A stretch of 41,981 nt of DNA from Candidatus Poribacteria bacterium (GTDB taxonomy: Bacteria > Poribacteria > WGA-4E > WGA-3G). Positions 12,240-27,817 of the stretch are shown one piece after another (position 1 is the stretch's first letter; the number at the start of each line of letters is the position of its first letter). The stretch covers positions 1-41,981 of the forward strand of contig JAPPII010000034.1 of the NCBI GenBank assembly GCA_028820845.1, written 5' to 3'. A program made the translations under genes and the position numbers. The notes beneath the pieces were generated by a model that worked only from the letters and a program-made list of their open reading frames with translations, was not told the origin of the DNA and did no database searches.

Positions 12240-14360
12240 CTAAGAATTGTCAACCTCAATCCGTACAGCACAGAATTTCAACTCCGGTTGCTTGGAGACC
12301 GGATCAAACGCTGGATTCGTCACGTAGTTTGAATTGGTCTCGGCGTGGAAAAGGTCTCCCCAATGAAACGGCGTAAAAAGCAATCCTCGCCGAATTGCTT
12401 CTGTGACCCGCGCCTTTGCATAACATCTCCCGCGGCGTCCAACAAGATAGACCCACTCGCCATCTTGAACATCGTTCTCTGCAGCATCGTCGGGATGGAT
12501 TTCGACAAAGGGTTCCGGCTCTTTACGCACCAGCTGCGGCACTTTGCCGGTTCGGGTGCGGGTGTGCCACTGACTCTCAACACGTCCCGTCGTCAATCCA
12601 AGTGGGAAGTCCTCAGTTACTTCCTCATCGGGAGGCCGATAGACAGGCGTTTTGAATTGTGCTCTTCCAGACTCGGTGAAAAACTTTGTACGTGTGTATC
12701 GGCGAGCCGTGCCGGGATGCCGTGGATGCGGACAGGGCCAGCGTAGCGAGGTCTTTGCGAGGCGTTCATTCGTCATTCCGAACTGATCGCACGGTGTGCC
12801 TGCTGTCAAGAGGCGATATTCATCCCATACCTCTTCAGCGTTATAGAAGTCGAAATTTGCTTTGAATCCCATCGCTTTTGCGACTTGTGCGAATATCCAC
12901 CAATCCGGCATCGCTTCACCCGGGGGCGTGAGGAACTGTTCGCTTCGGACGACGAGCCGTTCGCTGTTTGTCATTGTGCCTTGCTTTTCACCCCATTGGG
13001 CTGCGGGGAGCAGGACATCGGCGTATTCCGCTGTTTCCGTTGGGTAGTAGCAGTCCTGGACGATGACCAGATCGGCGCGTCGGAGTCCTGCCTGTGATAC
13101 CTTTGTATCAGGCATACTAACTGCGGGATTCGTGCAGGCGATCCAGAGTGCGCGGACTTTTCCTGCGGCTGCTGCTTCAAACATCGGCACGGCTGTTAAC
13201 CCTGGATTCGGATCAATGCTTCCGGGTGGGACTCTCCATGCGCCTTCCAGATAGGCGCGGTGCATATCGTTGGTGACGACCCGGTAGCCGGGCAACTGGT
13301 GCGACAGATAGCCGACCTCTCTTCCGCCCATCGCATTCGGTTGTCCTGTCAGTGAAAAAGGACCCGCACCCCTTACGCCAACTTCACCTAACTGGAGATG
13401 CAAGTTGATGAGCGCGACGTTTTTGTCAACGCCGCTTGTGCTTTGGTTGGTGCCTTGACAGTAAAAACTGAGCAGACGACTCGGTTTAGAAAGGTATTCA
13501 ACGATCTCGTCAATACGCGCAGGATGAATATCGCAGGCGGCAAGAAGTGCGTCTTCGTCAAGGCTCTTTAAATGATTCTCATAAGCACTGTAGTTTTCAG
13601 TCCGCCGACGGATAAAGCGTCGATTGATCCGTCCCATCGCAAGAAGCCGTTTGGCAATGAGTTGCAGGAAAGCGACATCGCTTCCAGGGGCAAGTGGGAC
13701 GTGGATATCTGAAAAATCTGCTGTCTTGGTGCGGCGTGGATCTACGGTGATAATCCGTGCGCTTGGCTCAAGTGCCCGCCGTTTGCGAATCATCTGGAAA
13801 AGCACGGGATGATTGACCACCATATTCGCGCCGATAATCAGGAAGACATCCGCATGCTGAATATCGTCATAGCAGGTAGGCGGTCCGTCGGAACCGAACG
13901 CTTGCATGTAACCCACGACTGCTGAAGACATGCAAAGCCGGCTGTTTGTATCTACGTTGTTCGTCCGGAGGAAGCCTTTGAACAATTTGTTGAAAACGTA
14001 GGAGGCTTCCGTGTCTAACTGCCCAGAGCCGTAAAGCGCGATGGAATCCTTGCCGTGCTCCAGTTGGACTTCGTGAAGCCGGTTTGCCGTGAAAGTAATC
14101 GCTTCATCCCATGAGACCTGGCGCGGTGGTTCGCCTCGCCGTTTGCGAATCATTGGATACGCGAGCCTTCCATCATGATTCTGAAAAACCTGTTTAAGAT
14201 GTGCACCTTTTGGACAGAGCATACCGTAATTTGGGGCGACATCGCCGTCCGCTGAAATTTTTGTAATCTTGTTATCAGAAACGGTTGCGCGGATGACGCA
14301 ACCGACACCACAATAAGGACAGACCGCTTTTCCTGTTGAGTTCTCCACTGGTTTCTCCAT
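12240..14360 (-). CDS. nasA: assimilatory nitrate reductase catalytic subunit
   Basis: Reduces nitrate to nitrite in the cytoplasm using a Mo-bis-MGD cofactor and one 4Fe-4S cluster. Cluster ligands are C14, C17, C21 and C49 (CPYCGVGC ... CPKG). The family block SRLCMSSAVVGY followed by GSDGPPTCYDDI is diagnostic for NasA/NarB rather than formate dehydrogenase. The C-terminal molybdopterin-binding domain is present (TTGRVESQWHTRTRTG, then PFHWGDLF); the 706-residue length fits NarB-type enzymes that lack the extra C-terminal cluster domain, so ferredoxin or a small partner probably supplies electrons. ATG 14360 is preferred to the TTG at 14366; neither has a Shine-Dalgarno, because the inverted-repeat element at 14371-14560 ends just upstream. 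It is the last gene of the nasT-nirA-narK-nasA unit. Confidence 0.93.
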   Translation of the reverse strand: MEKPVENSTGKAVCPYCGVGCVIRATVSDNKITKISADGDVAPNYGMLCPKGAHLKQVFQNHDGRLAYPMIRKRRGEPPRQVSWDEAITFTANRLHEVQLEHGKDSIALYGSGQLDTEASYVFNKLFKGFLRTNNVDTNSRLCMSSAVVGYMQAFGSDGPPTCYDDIQHADVFLIIGANMVVNHPVLFQMIRKRRALEPSARIITVDPRRTKTADFSDIHVPLAPGSDVAFLQLIAKRLLAMGRINRRFIRRRTENYSAYENHLKSLDEDALLAACDIHPARIDEIVEYLSKPSRLLSFYCQGTNQSTSGVDKNVALINLHLQLGEVGVRGAGPFSLTGQPNAMGGREVGYLSHQLPGYRVVTNDMHRAYLEGAWRVPPGSIDPNPGLTAVPMFEAAAAGKVRALWIACTNPAVSMPDTKVSQAGLRRADLVIVQDCYYPTETAEYADVLLPAAQWGEKQGTMTNSERLVVRSEQFLTPPGEAMPDWWIFAQVAKAMGFKANFDFYNAEEVWDEYRLLTAGTPCDQFGMTNERLAKTSLRWPCPHPRHPGTARRYTRTKFFTESGRAQFKTPVYRPPDEEVTEDFPLGLTTGRVESQWHTRTRTGKVPQLVRKEPEPFVEIHPDDAAENDVQDGEWVYLVGRRGRCYAKARVTEAIRRGLLFTPFHWGDLFHAETNSNYVTNPAFDPVSKQPELKFCAVRIEVDNS

Positions 14361-14370
14361 TATCAAATTA

Positions 14371-14564: not shown

Positions 14565-15917
14565 TTAGGACAAAGCCCCTACTTCCACTTTCAGACGCTG
14601 CCTTTCTGCGAGTGCGGCATCGAATGCTCGCTTCTCTGCGGCTTGGACTGCGGGTGAGAATCTCACTAACACTGTAGCAAACGAGGCGATTGTAACCATT
14701 GCACCAAGATACAACAAGCCTTGCGGCATCGTGATACTCTCAGCACGGAATAGGAAACCCGCAGCAACGGCACCAGCATTTCCACCCGCGCCAACGATAC
14801 CCGCAACAGCCCCTAATGCCTTTCTATTAATAAAAGGGACGATTCCATAGGTCGCGCCTTCGGACATTTGTACAAAGAGACTAAAGACTATCATCGCGCC
14901 AACAGCAAGCACAAGCACCGCCATCTGTGAGAAAACTATCAGCATGACCCCTTCACCTAAGAGAACAAAGAAGAGAAACATAACACGTCCGCGAAGTCCC
15001 CTCCTCTTCGCGAAGAAGTCGGAGAAAACGCCGCCAACCGTCCGTGCGAAAATATTCATCAAACCGAACAGTCCAGCGATGAGTCCAGCGGTCTTGACAT
15101 CTAACTGGAACTGGTCGTGATAGTAGAGCGCGGCGATATTGTTAATAGTGAGTTCCACACCGAAACAGACAGCATAGATAACAAAGAGTGCCCAGACGCG
15201 ATAGTCTTTAATCGCCGACATGAAGGACTCCATGCCTTTGCCTTTCGCGGGTTCAAGTTCGCCGCGTTCACGGAGATCTTTATAGTTGCCGTCTGGTGCA
15301 TCTTTGGTAAAGAAGTAATAGGCGAATCCAGTGATAAATAGCGCGACACCGGGAATAATCATTGCCAACCGCCAGCCGAGAAATTTGTCTACACCGAAAC
15401 TGAGAATAGCCGTAAAGATGAGCGGCATGACCATCTGCGTGACACCGCCACCGAGATTCCCCCATCCGGCTGTTGTCGCATTCGCTGTGCCGACACAATT
15501 CGGGGCAAACATCACCGAGGTGTGATACTGTGTGATAACGAACGAGGCACCGATAGCACCGATTGCGAGTCGAAAGAGCAGAAACGTCTCGTAATTCTGA
15601 GCGAGTCCGATACCCATTACTGGGAGTGAACCGAGAATCAGGAGCCACGTATACGCCTTTCGAGGCCCGATCTTGTCGCAAAGCGGTCCGATTAAGACCC
15701 GTACCAACACTGTGATTGCGACGGAAGCGATAATGGTATTACCCACCTCTGCTTTTGTTAGCATCAGGTCTTCACGGATAATCGCCATAAGCGGGGCAAT
15801 ACCGAACCATCCGAAGAAAGCTAAGAAAAAGGCGAACCACGTGGTATGGAAGGTACGCATCTGGATCGTTTTTAAGCTAAAGAGATTTATGTGTGTTGCT
15901 TTATTTTTTATATCCAT
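14565..15917 (-). CDS. narK: nitrate/nitrite transporter, major facilitator superfamily
   Basis: A 450-residue, roughly 12-helix inner-membrane transporter of the NarK/NrtP/NasA nitrate-nitrite porter family. Family features are the N-terminal HTTWFAFFLAFFGWFGIAPL, the loop motif GPLCDKIGPRKAY, and the Gly-rich nitrate-signature helix ANATTAGWGNLGGGVTQ. A second Gly-rich helix AGIVGAGGNAGAVAAGF completes the pair. Start ATG 15917 is chosen because GGAG lies about seven bases upstream and the protein then begins MDIKNK; the longer frame to 15977 would run into the inverted repeat at 15958-16015. Its neighbours nirA and nasA show that it imports nitrate for assimilation. Confidence 0.93.
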   Translation of the reverse strand: MDIKNKATHINLFSLKTIQMRTFHTTWFAFFLAFFGWFGIAPLMAIIREDLMLTKAEVGNTIIASVAITVLVRVLIGPLCDKIGPRKAYTWLLILGSLPVMGIGLAQNYETFLLFRLAIGAIGASFVITQYHTSVMFAPNCVGTANATTAGWGNLGGGVTQMVMPLIFTAILSFGVDKFLGWRLAMIIPGVALFITGFAYYFFTKDAPDGNYKDLRERGELEPAKGKGMESFMSAIKDYRVWALFVIYAVCFGVELTINNIAALYYHDQFQLDVKTAGLIAGLFGLMNIFARTVGGVFSDFFAKRRGLRGRVMFLFFVLLGEGVMLIVFSQMAVLVLAVGAMIVFSLFVQMSEGATYGIVPFINRKALGAVAGIVGAGGNAGAVAAGFLFRAESITMPQGLLYLGAMVTIASFATVLVRFSPAVQAAEKRAFDAALAERQRLKVEVGALS

Positions 15918-15957
15918 AAATTTCTCCAAATTTTTTAAATTATTAAGGATTTCGGCG

Positions 15958-16015
15958 GGAAGGATGGAAGACTGCAAGATTCGGAGAGACGCTTCTCCGA
16001 ACCTTCCATGCTTCC
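15958..16015. repeat. large imperfect inverted repeat between nirA and narK
   Basis: Three stem blocks pair around a six-base loop: GGAAG/CTTCC (15958-15962, 16011-16015), ATGGAAG/CTTCCAT (15964-15970, 16003-16009) and TTCGGAGA/TCTCCGAA (15980-15987, 15994-16001). An eight-base bulge interrupts one side. No T-run follows in the direction of transcription, so it is more likely an inserted palindromic repeat or an mRNA-processing/stabilising hairpin than a terminator. The GGAAG-ATGGAAG wording resembles the interior of 14371-14560 and the stretch near 18684-18708. Confidence 0.6.
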
Positions 16016-16018
16016 GCT

Positions 16019-17608
16019 CTATCTCCGTGAAAGATAAGGAACGAGACCTTCAAGGACTTGCGGTAGATCATCGCAAGGCACATTTTCTAACAACTTCGGT
16101 GCAACTTTAGGGTTAGCACTGGCATCCCCCTTGACAAATACATCCACGGCATCGGTAACGACTCCGTCAATTTTAACCCTCTTTCCAAGAAGTCCGATGT
16201 CTGCGGCGGCGTGATTGCCACACCCGTTTGGACATCCCGACCAGTGGATTGTAAGTGGTCTGGTATTGCCAAGTTTTGCTTCCAAATGTCGGATCGCTTC
16301 CATGGCGCGTTCCTTGGTCTCAATAAGCGAGAAGTGGCAGTAGTCGATACCCGTGCAACTGACCATACCGCGCACGATTTCGGAGGGATCATAACGGAGT
16401 TCTTGCAGGAGTGGCTCTGCAGTTAAGGCACCAACTTTATCGTTAGGAACATTAGTGATAATCAGATTCTGTGCCTGCGTGAGACGGATATCGCCGTTCC
16501 CGTATTCATCTGCGAGACGCGCCACCTCGAAAAGCTGTGTTGCCGTAATCCGTCCGACAGGAACAACAAGTCCGACATAGTTGAGATGTGGCTTTTTCTG
16601 AGAGAAGATACCGGTATGGTCGGTTTTCTTCTTGCCGCGCATATCTTTTCCAGCAGTCAGGAGCGGTTGTCTTCTGTGCCGCCGCTTTTCTACTTCTTCT
16701 CGGAATTTTTCTACACCCCACTCCTGAATCAGAAAAGCGAGCCGCGATTTATTCCGAGCTGTCCTGGCTCCGTGGTCTCGGAAAATCAGAGCAATGTCAG
16801 CACACAAAACAGTGGCTTCCTCAGGCACAACAAACGCATCAAGGGGTTGCGCGACGGTGTAGCCCCCAGACCCCATTTTTCCACCAACAGCGACGTTAAA
16901 GCCGTGTATCTCTTGACCCTCAATTTCCTTTACCGCTGGCGTAAGGGCAATATCCTGCGAAGCCGTATGGGTGCAGTTATCAAGGCATCCTGTAATACCG
17001 ACATTAAATTTGCGTGGAATATCGGTAAATTCCGTGTTCCCAACGAAGAGTTTCGTGAATTCTCTGGCGACATGGGACGCATCAAACAGTTCATTGGGGG
17101 TCAACCCAGCAACGGGACATCCTATGACACCGCGGATGTTGTCAAAACCGGTTTGGAGTGAATCCAAGCCTACCTCTTCAAGTCGATTCCAGATGTGCTG
17201 GACGTTTTCAATAGCGAAACCACGGAGCTGAATCTGTTGCCGCGTTGTAAGATCTATAAATCCGGGCCCGTATGCTTCACTGATTTCAGCAATTGCGCGA
17301 AACTGTTCGGCATTAGAAAAACCGCTGGACATGCGGAGACGCATCATAAATGCTCCCGGTGTCTGTTTTCGGTAAAAGATACCTACCCACTTGAGGCGGT
17401 CGCGTTCGTTCGTTGGAATCGATTCCCATCCGTCCCGGATGTAATTGGGAATGTCATTGATAACTTCAAGTCCATTCTTCTCCCGCTTCAGTGCTTCGGC
17501 AGCATTTACCTTAGACTTTCTCTTTTTCGCAGCTGCAGATGCCTTTAAACTGGGAGCTGAACGCACCTTTCGGTTTGCGCGGATAACCCTCTTTTTCGAT
17601 TGATTCAC
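16019..17608 (-). CDS. nirA: ferredoxin--nitrite reductase (siroheme)
   Basis: Six-electron reduction of nitrite to ammonium in the cytoplasm, with siroheme and a 4Fe-4S cluster. The cluster/siroheme cysteines are visible as C-x5-C (C418, C424, in SCTGIDYC) and C-x3-C (C459, C463, in SGCPNGCG). Two ferredoxin-like halves (the first around DLTTRQQIQLRG, the second around LTQAQNLIITN) are present; length 529 fits ferredoxin-dependent NirA. The start is GTG 17608: AAGGAGGG lies seven bases upstream, whereas the longer frame to 17740 would translate the regulatory leader and its terminator hairpin. A basic Lys/Arg-rich N-terminus of about 35 residues is unusual. Sulfite reductase is the main alternative, but operon context favours nitrite. 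Confidence 0.93.
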   Translation of the reverse strand: MNQSKKRVIRANRKVRSAPSLKASAAAKKRKSKVNAAEALKREKNGLEVINDIPNYIRDGWESIPTNERDRLKWVGIFYRKQTPGAFMMRLRMSSGFSNAEQFRAIAEISEAYGPGFIDLTTRQQIQLRGFAIENVQHIWNRLEEVGLDSLQTGFDNIRGVIGCPVAGLTPNELFDASHVAREFTKLFVGNTEFTDIPRKFNVGITGCLDNCTHTASQDIALTPAVKEIEGQEIHGFNVAVGGKMGSGGYTVAQPLDAFVVPEEATVLCADIALIFRDHGARTARNKSRLAFLIQEWGVEKFREEVEKRRHRRQPLLTAGKDMRGKKKTDHTGIFSQKKPHLNYVGLVVPVGRITATQLFEVARLADEYGNGDIRLTQAQNLIITNVPNDKVGALTAEPLLQELRYDPSEIVRGMVSCTGIDYCHFSLIETKERAMEAIRHLEAKLGNTRPLTIHWSGCPNGCGNHAAADIGLLGKRVKIDGVVTDAVDVFVKGDASANPKVAPKLLENVPCDDLPQVLEGLVPYLSRR

Positions 17609-17645
17609 TTTTAAACCCTCCTTCAGAAACTGACAATTGAAGAAT

Positions 17646-17726
17646 AAAAAACAAAAAAGGCATCTACTGGTGAGCATATAGTTTCGGTTTACAAGTTGCA
17701 CCGAAAGCTCAACCCAATAGACACCT
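17646..17726 (-). terminator. leader terminator upstream of nirA, alternative to ANTAR hairpin P2
   Basis: Reading the minus strand, AGGTGTCTATTGG (17726-17714) pairs over 13 bases, with three G-U pairs, with CCAGTAGATGCCT (17670-17658). Inside it, TGAGC/GCTCA and TTTCGGT/ACCGAAA continue the stem. The 3' arm runs into T6-G-T6 (17658-17646). The 5' arm includes the loop and 3' side of P2 (17719-17732), so P2 and terminator cannot form together. Ribosome site and GTG start of nirA lie about 38 bases beyond the T-run. Confidence 0.78.
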
Positions 17727-17757
17727 ATGTCTGGTCCCAAACCCCCTTTGGTTCGGG
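17719..17757 (-). ncRNA. ANTAR-target antitermination RNA (P1 and P2 hexaloop hairpins)
   Basis: On the minus strand, hairpin P1 (17757-17736) has stem CCCGAACC / GGTTTGGG, eight pairs with one G-U, around the six-base loop AAAGGG. After a three-base linker, hairpin P2 (17732-17719) has stem AGAC / GTCT around the loop ATAGGT, extendable by CC/GG across a bulge. Both loops have A at position 1 and G at position 4, the invariant bases of known ANTAR-binding RNAs. The RNA lies directly between an ANTAR-domain gene and nirA. Protein binding to P1/P2 should free the downstream polymerase from the terminator at 17646-17726. Confidence 0.82.
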
Positions 17758-17838: not shown

Positions 17839-18441
17839 TTACAATTTATTCGTCAACACTTCCGCCATAGATAACAACTCCTGTGAGACTTCCGCAAGGC
17901 GTTTTCTGCGATTCATCGCCATCTTTCGTAAAATTTGGTACGCTTGTGCCTCGTCACAACCGCGATGTTGAGCAAGGAGCTCCTTTGCGCGCTCAATGAT
18001 TTTACGTTCGGCGAGGCTTGTCTTAGTTTTCTCAAGTTCCTCCTGTAATGCCCGGAATTCATAAAACCGAGCAACTGCCGCCTCAATGATCGTTTTAACT
18101 CTGGCACCGGTGAGTTCTCCAACAGCATAAGCAGAAACACCTGCACGCGTTGCTGCCTGAATCGTCTCCGATCGCTCATCACGCGAAAACATGACCATCG
18201 GACACGGATAGCTTGCGTGAAGAGAGTCAACCCAACCGAGTATTGTCTGTCCGGGAAAGTCAACGCCTATCAATATAATGTCGGGTTTTAAGTGTGAGAC
18301 CTGGCTTATTAAGTCTCTCTGCAGACGCAGCGGCGCAGCGACCTCGTACCGCCCTGCTTTTAGGATTCGGATTAATGTAGCGGCTCGCTCTCGATTGTTA
18401 TCAATGATTAAAACCTTTGGCGTTGAAGTGTCTGTTTCCAT
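17839..18441 (-). CDS. nasT: NasT-like ANTAR antitermination regulator
   Basis: A 200-residue cytosolic RNA-binding regulator. The N-terminal receiver-like domain (about 8-125) has D14-N15 in the acidic pocket and the phospho-acceptor position D61 (LIGVDFPG). The stretch AGVSAYAVGELTGARVKTIIEAA is characteristic of NasT. A coiled linker (about 126-145) leads to the C-terminal ANTAR domain (about 146-195), with ERAKELLAQHRGCDEAQAYQILRK. ATG 18441 is preferred over the in-frame GTG 18468; AAGGG lies six bases upstream. A sigma-54 promoter precedes it and its presumed RNA target follows it. In Proteobacteria and Azotobacter NasT is held by the nitrate sensor NasS; no nasS gene is adjacent here. 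Confidence 0.88.
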   Translation of the reverse strand: METDTSTPKVLIIDNNRERAATLIRILKAGRYEVAAPLRLQRDLISQVSHLKPDIILIGVDFPGQTILGWVDSLHASYPCPMVMFSRDERSETIQAATRAGVSAYAVGELTGARVKTIIEAAVARFYEFRALQEELEKTKTSLAERKIIERAKELLAQHRGCDEAQAYQILRKMAMNRRKRLAEVSQELLSMAEVLTNKL

Positions 18442-24412: not shown

Positions 24413-26029
24413 CTATTTGATTATAGCTCCCGCACTTTCAGTCGGGATATAATAATAACCGTAGATAATGCACATCTCATCTTCAGATGTGAGTCCGAAT
24501 ATGAGGGGTTCATTCGTGTCGTAGTTGTTGTGGGTACACTGGAAACTGAGTCCATCGTCTGATCCTAAGCGGAGAACAGGATCAAAGAGATTAATGGGAG
24601 CATTGTCGTAAGCGATGCTTCGGTGCAATAAATCCCCGGTTGATCTCTGATTGATTTCAAACAACTCACCGTGTCTGTGCATGTGCGATGTCAGTAAGAA
24701 AACACTTAATTCCGTTTCGGGATTGTGCCCTCGGCGTTCGAGTTCATCTTCAACATACCACGTCATTTTGGAAACGCGCGTTGTGCCGGGAGGCACGTTA
24801 ATCGACCGGTTAGAGACGAAGATTTCAATCGCCTCGTACTGGACCTCTTCTTCGGGGATCGTGTAGATATTGACGTAAGTTTCGCCAATCAATGTTTCGT
24901 CCCCCAGCAAATTGATGTAGTGGGAATTGAGGTCATACATAGTGTCTCCAGGCATTCGCAACCCTACACCTTCAGGAAACTCAAAGAGCGTATCATCCGT
25001 CTGCGTGCCGACGACGAAAAGTCTATCAACACCGAAATTGCCAAGTACCTGTGGATCGTCTGGGTCGAGTTCACGGAATCTATCCGTCGCTGGATCGACT
25101 GCGATTCCGGGTGTAATACCTCTCTCTGGTACACCGTTTGCCAAACCTTCCTCGGTAAATCGATATAGGATGAAATGATGACTACCAGAAGGATAGAAGA
25201 TTTCAACCCTATTGATAAAGATGTCGCCCTCTATCGGATTCCCATTTTCATCAGTGATTTGGGTAGCGTAGTAGATTTCGCGTTCCGTACCGGGTTCAAT
25301 CTTGAAGGGTGGCAGACGGAGTTGATAGCCTTCACCAGGGGCTGGTGGCGCGGGCGGTTCAAACACTTCATCGGGATCACGTAAGACACCAAGGTCCCCA
25401 ATACCTGCGATTTTACCGGTCTGCGGTGCGCCCGCCGCAATCCATGTGCGGACTGCCTCTATTTTCCCAGTATGGAGTACGCCGCCGCCAAACGGCATCC
25501 GTGCACCCAGTTCTGGTGCGGCGGGGCCCATTAGCTTCGCCAAAAGGAAACTATTTTCTGGGTTGCCCGGATCTACGAGTTTCATACCCGCAGCCGCGGC
25601 GGCTGGGTTCTGCGGAACCTGTCCAACCAAATCTTCATAGGAGAGCTCATAGGTGAGATTCAAACTACCCGCATTCGCGGGCGCCGCATGACAAACACTG
25701 TTCGCACAACTCCTATCAAAGACATATTCCTGAATATCGTGATATGCTGAATTTTCATTCGGCACGGTTTGTCCAAAACTGTTACTGACCCGAACGAGAT
25801 CAAGCACATTAACAATCCCGTCGCGATTGACATCAGGGTCCTGCGTTGCATTGCGGTCTCTGAGTTGTCCAAAGGCAGCAGCAACAAGTACTAAGTCTTG
25901 GATGTTTACCACCCCGTCTTTATTGACATCCTCTAACAGCGTCGGGAGATCACTGTGTCCGAGTGCCAAAAAAGAGAAGCTGCCCATCAGCAAGGTGATG
26001 AGTGTGAGATAGACTATTTTTCTTACCAT
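24413..26029 (-). CDS. secreted dockerin - cytochrome c-like - copper monooxygenase protein, copy 1
   Basis: A 538-residue exported protein. Order: signal peptide (about 1-24), type I dockerin repeats DVNKDGVVNIQDL and DVNRDGIVNVLDL (about 34-86), a cytochrome c-like domain (about 92-205) and a copper type II monooxygenase module of PHM/dopamine-beta-monooxygenase kind (about 235-535). The cytochrome part has an unusual C-x4-CH haem motif (C108, C113-H114) and a possible Met ligand in ARMPFGG. All six copper ligands expected from PHM can be assigned: HH 284-285, H370, H449 and H451 (in SHMHRHG), M519. Start ATG 26029 is aligned with the paralogue; GGAGG lies unusually far (about 15 bases) upstream in both. 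Substrate unknown. Immediately downstream of paralogue 26219-27817. Confidence 0.85.
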   Translation of the reverse strand: MVRKIVYLTLITLLMGSFSFLALGHSDLPTLLEDVNKDGVVNIQDLVLVAAAFGQLRDRNATQDPDVNRDGIVNVLDLVRVSNSFGQTVPNENSAYHDIQEYVFDRSCANSVCHAAPANAGSLNLTYELSYEDLVGQVPQNPAAAAAGMKLVDPGNPENSFLLAKLMGPAAPELGARMPFGGGVLHTGKIEAVRTWIAAGAPQTGKIAGIGDLGVLRDPDEVFEPPAPPAPGEGYQLRLPPFKIEPGTEREIYYATQITDENGNPIEGDIFINRVEIFYPSGSHHFILYRFTEEGLANGVPERGITPGIAVDPATDRFRELDPDDPQVLGNFGVDRLFVVGTQTDDTLFEFPEGVGLRMPGDTMYDLNSHYINLLGDETLIGETYVNIYTIPEEEVQYEAIEIFVSNRSINVPPGTTRVSKMTWYVEDELERRGHNPETELSVFLLTSHMHRHGELFEINQRSTGDLLHRSIAYDNAPINLFDPVLRLGSDDGLSFQCTHNNYDTNEPLIFGLTSEDEMCIIYGYYYIPTESAGAIIK

Positions 26030-26191
26030 AATTAACAATTCAACCTCCAAATGTGTTGGTTAATACGATTGATTGTGTGCTTGGCATGCTTTATTTACTT
26101 ATTGTTCACAATAGTGTTATACCACTTCTAAAAGTTTATATCGCATTAACTGCCCTTTAATGCAAAGGTTAAAGCATAATGCTACAAGCCT

Positions 26192-26218: not shown

Positions 26219-27817
26219 TCAATCAGAAATGGTATTAGTTGGCACATAATAATAGCCGACAATAATGCACATCTCGTCTTCGGATGTAAAACCGAATTCA
26301 ATAGGTACGTCCCGATCATAATTGTTGTGCGTACACTGAAAGCTGAGCCCATCGGTTGCATCGAGTACCAGGGGCTGTGTATAAAAGGTTATCGGTGCGT
26401 CATCATAAGCAACACTTCGGTGCAACAAATCACCAGTTGACTGTTGAAAGATTTCAAACAATTCGCCGTGTCTGTGCATGTGAGATGTAAGCATCATGAC
26501 GTTCAATGTCGTCCCAGGATCTATGCCTTTTAGTTCCATTTCATCTGCAATATGCCAATCCATTTTGGTAACCCGTGTTAGCCCGGGGGGGACGTTAATC
26601 TCTGTATTGGAGACGAAAATCTCAATTGCCTCATGCGTGACATCTTCAGGTGGAAGTGTGTAAATATTGATGTAGACCTCACCAATTAGGGTTTCGGTCC
26701 CTAATAAATTAATGAAGTGAGAATTCAGGTCAAAGAGGGTATCACCTGCAAGACGGAGTGCAACGCCCTCTGGAAAGGCAAACGAGAAATCTTCGTTTTG
26801 TGTGCCGGCAACGAAGAAACGATGCGTTCCAAGGTTTCCAAGTGCCTGTGGGTCAGCTGGGTCTAACTCTCGGAAAGTATCTGCCGGATCAACACCGATT
26901 CCGGGATCTAAGCCTGCTTCAAGGATTCCTTCTGAGATTGCAGCATCGGTCATCCGATATAAGATAAAGTGATGGCTGCCGACAGGATAGAAAATCTCAT
27001 ACTTATTTATGAAGATGTCACCCTGTACTGGATTTCCATTTTCATCTTTGATTTGCGTTGTATAAAATACTTCGCGTTCAGTGCCGGGTTCGATTTTGAA
27101 GGGAGGCAAATGAAGTTGATACCCTTCACCGGGTGGAGGTGGCGCTGGTGCTTCAAAGATTTCTTCAGGGTCGCGTAAAACTGCAAGGTCCCCCATCCCT
27201 GCTACTCTACCAGTCTGTGGTGCACCAGCCGCAATCCAAGCACGAATTGCTTCTATTTTTCCATCGTGGAGCACGCCACCCCCAAAGGGCATCCGTGTTC
27301 CTTGTTCTGGTGCTGTGGGGCCCATCAGTTTCGTCAAAAGGAAACTGTTCTCTGGATTGCTGGGATCCACGAGTTTCATGCCAGCCGCAGCAGGATTTTG
27401 TGGCACCCCGACAACCAAATCTTCATAAGAGAGACCATAGGTCAGATTTAAATTACCAGCGTTGGCAGGTACTGCATGACATGCACCGCTTGCACAACTT
27501 TTATCAAAGATATACTCTTGGATATTGTGATATGCTGAATTTTCATCCGGTGCAGTCTGTCCAAAACTGTTACTGACCCGAACAAGATCTAAGATATTAA
27601 CGATTCCATCGCGATTGACATCAGGGTCGTGTTCCGCATTGCGATCTCTGGGTTGTCCGAAAGCAGTCGCGACGAGCACCAGGTCTTGGACGTTCACGAC
27701 ACTATCTTTATTGACATCCTCCAAAAGCGTGGGGAGATCGCTGTGTCCAAACACAACCGTAGAGATCGTACCGACGAATAAGAGGATCAGCGCGGCATAA
27801 ACCATCTTTTTAAGCAT
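26219..27817 (-). CDS. secreted dockerin - cytochrome c-like - copper monooxygenase protein, copy 2
   Basis: A 532-residue tandem paralogue of 24413-26029 with the same order of parts: signal peptide (1-24), two dockerin calcium loops (about 34-81; the first has DVNKDSVVN), the cytochrome c-like domain with C-x4-CH (C108, C113-H114), and the copper monooxygenase module. Ligands are HH 282-283, H367, H446 and H448, M516. The two proteins are so alike along their length, including the promoter-proximal leader wording, that duplication looks recent. It begins 29 bases after the glycosyltransferase stop, so it may be transcribed with it. The dockerin suggests calcium-dependent docking to a cohesin partner, though none is encoded here. 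Confidence 0.85.
   Translation of the reverse strand: MLKKMVYAALILLFVGTISTVVFGHSDLPTLLEDVNKDSVVNVQDLVLVATAFGQPRDRNAEHDPDVNRDGIVNILDLVRVSNSFGQTAPDENSAYHNIQEYIFDKSCASGACHAVPANAGNLNLTYGLSYEDLVVGVPQNPAAAGMKLVDPSNPENSFLLTKLMGPTAPEQGTRMPFGGGVLHDGKIEAIRAWIAAGAPQTGRVAGMGDLAVLRDPEEIFEAPAPPPPGEGYQLHLPPFKIEPGTEREVFYTTQIKDENGNPVQGDIFINKYEIFYPVGSHHFILYRMTDAAISEGILEAGLDPGIGVDPADTFRELDPADPQALGNLGTHRFFVAGTQNEDFSFAFPEGVALRLAGDTLFDLNSHFINLLGTETLIGEVYINIYTLPPEDVTHEAIEIFVSNTEINVPPGLTRVTKMDWHIADEMELKGIDPGTTLNVMMLTSHMHRHGELFEIFQQSTGDLLHRSVAYDDAPITFYTQPLVLDATDGLSFQCTHNNYDRDVPIEFGFTSEDEMCIIVGYYYVPTNTISD

Follow-up and report, generated by a model that had tools for sequence, protein, structure and literature searches.

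What regulates the assimilation genes that follow nasT in this Candidatus Poribacteria genome, and is the RNA between nasT and nirA a switch? The stretch of DNA that we analysed, a contig of 41,981 bases (the window), carries on its minus strand, in this order, nasT, a leader, nirA, a gene for a NarK-family transporter and a gene for a NasA-like nitrate reductase (Table 1). The name nasA was given partly from operon context, since the protein reaches no NCBIfam equivalog cut-off. The placement of nirA, narK and nasA downstream of nasT is kept throughout the genus. Judged from its sequence and those of its relatives, the leader is very probably an ANTAR antitermination switch through which NasT controls nirA-narK-nasA. 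The RNA is of the known ANTAR type, and comparable nasST-nirA switches are already known in Proteobacteria. We found no nasS gene near the nasT-nirA locus, and no promoter could be placed with confidence. A dyad such as GCACGCGTTCAAGGGTGAACAAGGCGTGC, absent from the window, is conserved between nasT and P1, the first leader hairpin, in L042, L043, L045, L048 and L054, and may serve as operator to a promoter upstream of P1. In another relative (L057, 6169-8558) an intact-looking leader is followed by mere fragments of nirA and nasA, so that part of the operon seems to have been deleted or disrupted. Elsewhere in the window, at 24413-26050 and 26219-27817 on the minus strand, lie two tandem paralogues, whose products of 545 and 532 residues look secreted.

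Table 1. Features of the nasT-nirA locus (window coordinates) and of variant or additional elements in related genomes (coordinates of the named sequences).
Feature	Position	Strand	Basis or remark
nasT	17839..18441	minus	REC-like domain, coiled coil and ANTAR domain; ORF open to 18468, probable ATG 18441
Whole element, P1 to U-tract	17653-17757	minus	between nasT and nirA
P1 hairpin CCCGAACC[AAAGGG]GGTTTGGG, 8 bp	17736..17757, loop 17749-17744	minus	sequence, folding, 32-leader alignment
P2 (antiterminator) hairpin AGAC[ATAGGT]GTCT, 4 bp	17719..17732, loop 17728-17723	minus	sequence and 32-leader alignment
Terminator 5' arm AGGTGTCTATTGGGTTGAGC	17707..17726	minus	overlaps P2 loop and P2 3' stem
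Terminator 3' arm GCTCACCAGTAGATGCCT	17658..17675	minus	17 pairs tested, 97.9% of cells paired
U-tract of intrinsic terminator	17653..17658	minus	sequence; GCCTTTTTT at 17658-17653
Shine-Dalgarno-like AAGGAGG of nirA	17617..17623	minus	sequence
nirA, ferredoxin-nitrite reductase	16019..17608	minus	GTG start at 17608; Pfam and NCBIfam
NarK-family nitrate/nitrite MFS transporter	14565..15977	minus	TIGR00886 above its cut-off
nasA-like assimilatory nitrate reductase (molybdopterin oxidoreductase)	12240..14366	minus	profile matches and operon context
P1-disrupted leaders	L035, L041, L046, L050, L052, L053, L055, L071, L072, L074		
P2-like hexaloop and terminator before nasT	L068 5295-5384 (-), L069 5325-5414 (-), L070 1775-1864 (+)		after amt in L068
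Second, unlinked element of G022 and G035	L095 2954-2998 (minus strand), L096 2991-3035		before porin gene
Element of G047	L097 2742-2786		after amt; no ANTAR protein in genome

The element is composed of two hairpins, P1 and P2, and an intrinsic terminator. Both hairpins have six-base loops that begin with A and have G as their fourth base (A1/G4), and 3 nt separate them in the window; published dual-hexaloop ANTAR RNAs have P1-P2 linkers of 2-25 nt (PMC8164766). An earlier note on this DNA had placed two such hairpins, with loops AAAGGG and ATAGGT, between an ANTAR gene and nirA, and its sequences and coordinates are right; it left the strand unstated, which is minus. It had also described the terminator 5' arm as including the loop and 3' side of P2, and the arm indeed begins within the P2 loop, at 17726 (AGGTGTCTATTGG...). 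A search of Rfam returned no match above the gathering score for any family, and only chance matches at high E-values.

Folding calculations, proposed beforehand as a check, agree with this layout. None of 200 dinucleotide shuffles matches the 221-nt leader in fold energy (z -4.5), and the leader's lowest-energy computed fold combines P1 with the terminator and excludes P2. The plus-strand reading of the region was ruled out, its fold being ordinary (z -1.46). In computed folds of successive prefixes P1 appears earliest and P2 by about nt 49, and P2 is displaced near nt 103 as the terminator 3' arm emerges. Forcing P2 into the predicted structure costs about 11 kcal/mol, which is the layout expected where a protein must hold P2.

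We propose that in the absence of active NasT the nascent RNA would form P1 and then, transiently, P2, until the longer terminator hairpin displaces P2 and transcription ends before nirA. Active NasT, probably as a dimer, would bind the A1/G4 hexaloops and hold P2; with P2 held the terminator could not form, and RNA polymerase would read through. We infer both the binding and the readthrough, and likewise that the switch is governed by nitrate, by nitrite or by nitrogen status. The scheme matches the published model of ANTAR antitermination (PMC3369931, PMC3369936, PMC8934654), the known logic to which the earlier note had appealed.

The distribution of the element among relatives follows that of its putative regulator. 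Of 60 related genomes 40 encode NasT, and in every one of the 40 our model of the P1/P2 element has a match beside nasT, an association that ignores shared descent. Thirty of these matches score strongly and ten weakly, the latter because P1 carries an insertion. In the 20 genomes without NasT, the same search found no intact element. No exception to A1 or G4 occurs in either loop across 32 aligned leaders, and the P2 pairs are paired in 100% of cells. The earlier note was prepared to give up its reading if homologous leaders showed no covariation, and covariation was found above all shuffles and slid controls. For P1 and P2 together, two-sided changes occupy 19 cells vs 10.4 in shuffles, and the covariation score of 0.189 (vs 0.141) exceeds all 500 shuffles, which ignore relatedness, while the slid controls all score <=0.10. 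The terminator score of 0.289 (vs 0.217) exceeds all slides and all 500 shuffles, to which the same caveat on relatedness applies. The evidence from P1 and P2 is only moderate, since pairs with changes on both sides number 5 vs 4.1 in the shuffles, which is no excess; three of the four P2 pairs are invariable across the leaders, and column pair 13/28 is mostly unpaired.

That the two forms exclude each other, as had been claimed, is supported by the alternative folds, by the covariation of both forms and by a single alignment column. Column 48 has two partners, column 35 in the P2 stem and column 116 in the terminator stem, and it covaries with both, which directly supports mutual exclusion. 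In the 32 leaders columns 35/48/116 take four states exclusively (A-U-A in 12, G-C-G in 8, and the wobble intermediates A-U-G in 7 and G-U-A in 5, counts that are not independent events because related sequences share changes); thus both pairings are preserved in every leader.

The NasT of the window is the sole ANTAR protein of its genome. It matches the Pfam ANTAR family with 64.7 bits, and Response_reg falls below its cut-off. The best full-length fold match to its predicted structure (pLDDT 88) is RNA-bound EutV (6ww6). NasT also aligns with EutV over its full length, and R142, K143, E160, Y164 and M172, the RNA-contact residues of EutV (PMC8934654), are all conserved. The VIA-align list consists mostly of receiver domains; it is Pfam, the EutV alignment and the 6ww6 match that support the ANTAR half. 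The architecture of REC-like domain, coiled coil and ANTAR domain with conserved RNA contacts is that of NasT, and so is the linkage to nitrate/nitrite assimilation genes. At the site of the receiver's phospho-aspartate each of the 40 aligned poribacterial NasT sequences has glycine, but six of six NasS-linked NasT sequences examined have aspartate; a phospho-accepting aspartate of the EutV type is absent from the poribacterial protein.

NasS is the nitrate sensor that normally controls NasT. A NasS protein query, run without a positive control, found nothing in any of the 60 genomes. The profile of the NasS family, PF13379 (CmpA/NrtA-like), matched in 12 of 14 control genomes, and its matches in the NasT genomes were all weak or partial, the best with 35.8 bits vs 238 for a true NasS. 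One candidate in the genome of the window was rejected as belonging to thiamine-precursor transport, being a ThiY-like gene beside thiO. The partner that a NasS-NasT system encodes in the genome, usually adjacent to nasT, was therefore not found, and for this reason we file the poribacterial protein as NasT-like and not as a proven member of that system. It is unlikely that incomplete assemblies explain the failure to find NasS in 40 genomes; a sensor that has diverged strongly is possible. With no NasS found and a receiver that has no phospho-acceptor, some other route must carry the signal to NasT.

The same two findings would also fit a NasT that is constitutive or acts through its abundance, with the leader, still an ANTAR RNA, attenuating transcription rather than sensing nitrate. 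So would the sequence just upstream of nasT in one family, where a P2-like hexaloop and terminator occur with no clear P1, suggesting autoregulation, possibly by a single hexaloop. However, a constitutive factor would not need the REC-like domain, which is conserved. The AmiC-AmiR system of the Pseudomonas aeruginosa amidase operon, like the one described here, has an ANTAR protein with a non-phosphorylated pseudo-receiver (PMC3369936). AmiR is held by a partner, the ligand-binding AmiC, and an unrecognised partner of poribacterial NasT is thus equally possible, although no AmiC counterpart was found in Poribacteria and AmiR resembles NasT less closely in sequence and fold than EutV does. On balance we consider a NasT that is constitutive or set by its abundance rather unlikely. 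Within the preferred reading, that of a regulated switch, we suggest, with somewhat more reserve than conviction, that poribacterial NasT has lost both NasS and the phosphorylation site and takes its signal from a partner or ligand, so far unrecognised, that acts on the pseudo-receiver, and that about a quarter of the NasT genomes may switch by P2 alone, as natural single-hexaloop antiterminators, after a palindromic repeat destroyed P1.

In ten NasT genomes this repeat, about 30-45 nt long, interrupts the 3' arm of P1, and further copies occur in all three of the P1-disrupted genomes that were checked. L035 carries it and its close relative L036 does not. Four of the ten leaders no longer have A1 in the original P1 loop. 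Across the ten, the pairs that used to close P1 have near-zero computed probability, and in several leaders the P1 stub refolds into an ACCT/AGGT hairpin whose loop has no G4. P2 and the terminator are still conserved in these leaders.

Two genomes, G022 and G035, have a second element that is unlinked to nasT. In G035 its P1 is GTGGAACC[AACGTT]GGTTCCAC; in both, the P2 loop is AGAGGT, the terminator overlaps P2, and the element precedes a gene for an Alginate_exp outer-membrane porin of about 420 residues. All four outer pairs of P1 have bases other than those in the window and are nonetheless intact, and the hexaloops and terminator are kept. This suggests a wider NasT regulon in G022 and G035. 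No convincing element accompanies the relatives of this porin in G036, G039 and G059, and the genome of the window has no clear second one, its sole other model match (19 bits) lying in a coding region. Further model matches were rejected: those in G041, G044, G045 and G047:C46 all fall inside one conserved coding sequence, those in G000:C113 and G028 lie within coding sequence, and that in G037 is a simple hairpin.

Could the leader be a mere intrinsic terminator of nasT, its hexaloop hairpins incidental? The terminator is strong, it is placed after nasT, and it is retained in the roughly ten genomes where the repeat breaks P1. Against this stand the invariance of A1 and G4 in both loops of the 32 leaders, including the loop of P1, which lies outside the terminator, the three-way covariation of columns 35/48/116, and the second copy before the unlinked porin gene. 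A strict scan for two A1/G4 hexaloop hairpins, a short linker, a terminator starting in the P2 loop and a T run also argues against it: the nasT-nirA leader is the sole match on both strands of the window, and 100 Markov-randomised windows gave 1 match, or about 0.01 expected per window. We regard a terminator with incidental hairpins as highly improbable.

G047, which encodes no ANTAR protein, retains a recognisable element in which the P1 loop A1, the terminator run and one P2 pair are missing. It is most simply read as having decayed once NasT was lost, a reading based on one genome of 88% completeness. That the RNA itself senses a ligand in the manner of a riboswitch, with NasT incidental, would agree with a conserved structured leader that has alternative folds, but the unpaired positions that are conserved coincide with the ones that ANTAR proteins are known to recognise, co-occurrence with NasT is strict and the element appears to have decayed in G047, and we give this explanation hardly any credence.

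As a probable ANTAR switch the poribacterial element has several known counterparts. In Bradyrhizobium diazoefficiens nirA lies downstream of nasST and its leader contains a NasT hairpin (PMC6759348), and Paracoccus denitrificans has a NasT-controlled nasA leader (PMC3795266). The NasS-NasT leaders of nas, nos and nirA genes in Alphaproteobacteria resemble the poribacterial one in having leader hairpins and a terminator, and a NasT-type regulator beside nitrate/nitrite assimilation genes; the leader of a Methylocystis plasmid nasT-nasS locus (L126) has the same P1/P2/terminator layout and passes the strict architecture scan. However, NasS is encoded next to NasT in all five proteobacterial loci examined, whereas it was not detected in Poribacteria, and proteobacterial NasT keeps the receiver Asp where poribacterial NasT has Gly. 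The covariance model built from Poribacteria found no match in proteobacterial leaders because the sequences are too divergent; a sequence-independent architecture scan, used in its place, recovers the window element and one proteobacterial leader. The EutV-responsive eut leaders of Enterococcus faecalis (PMC3369931, PMC8934654) have in common with the poribacterial system the dual A1/G4 hexaloops with a short linker, the overlap of P2 and terminator, and the RNA-contact residues of the protein. EutV is switched by phosphorylation of Asp54, where poribacterial NasT has glycine, and it targets ethanolamine genes, whereas the poribacterial element precedes nitrate genes. The NasR-controlled nasF leader of Klebsiella also serves a nitrate-assimilation operon through antitermination and the A1/G4 loop rule (PMC3369936), but NasR has its own NIT sensor domain, which poribacterial NasT does not have. 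In the open-licence literature, which is part of the whole, we found no paper on ANTAR RNAs or nitrate-assimilation regulation in Poribacteria, in keeping with the earlier suggestion that the lineage is probably uncharacterised in this respect.

The comparative evidence that Poribacteria, uncultured sponge symbionts, join the organisms with ANTAR RNA systems is good. For poribacterial NasT the input cannot be the textbook route through NasS or phosphorylation. The leaders with a broken P1 and the decayed-looking element of G047 bear on whether the ANTAR model needs both hexaloops.
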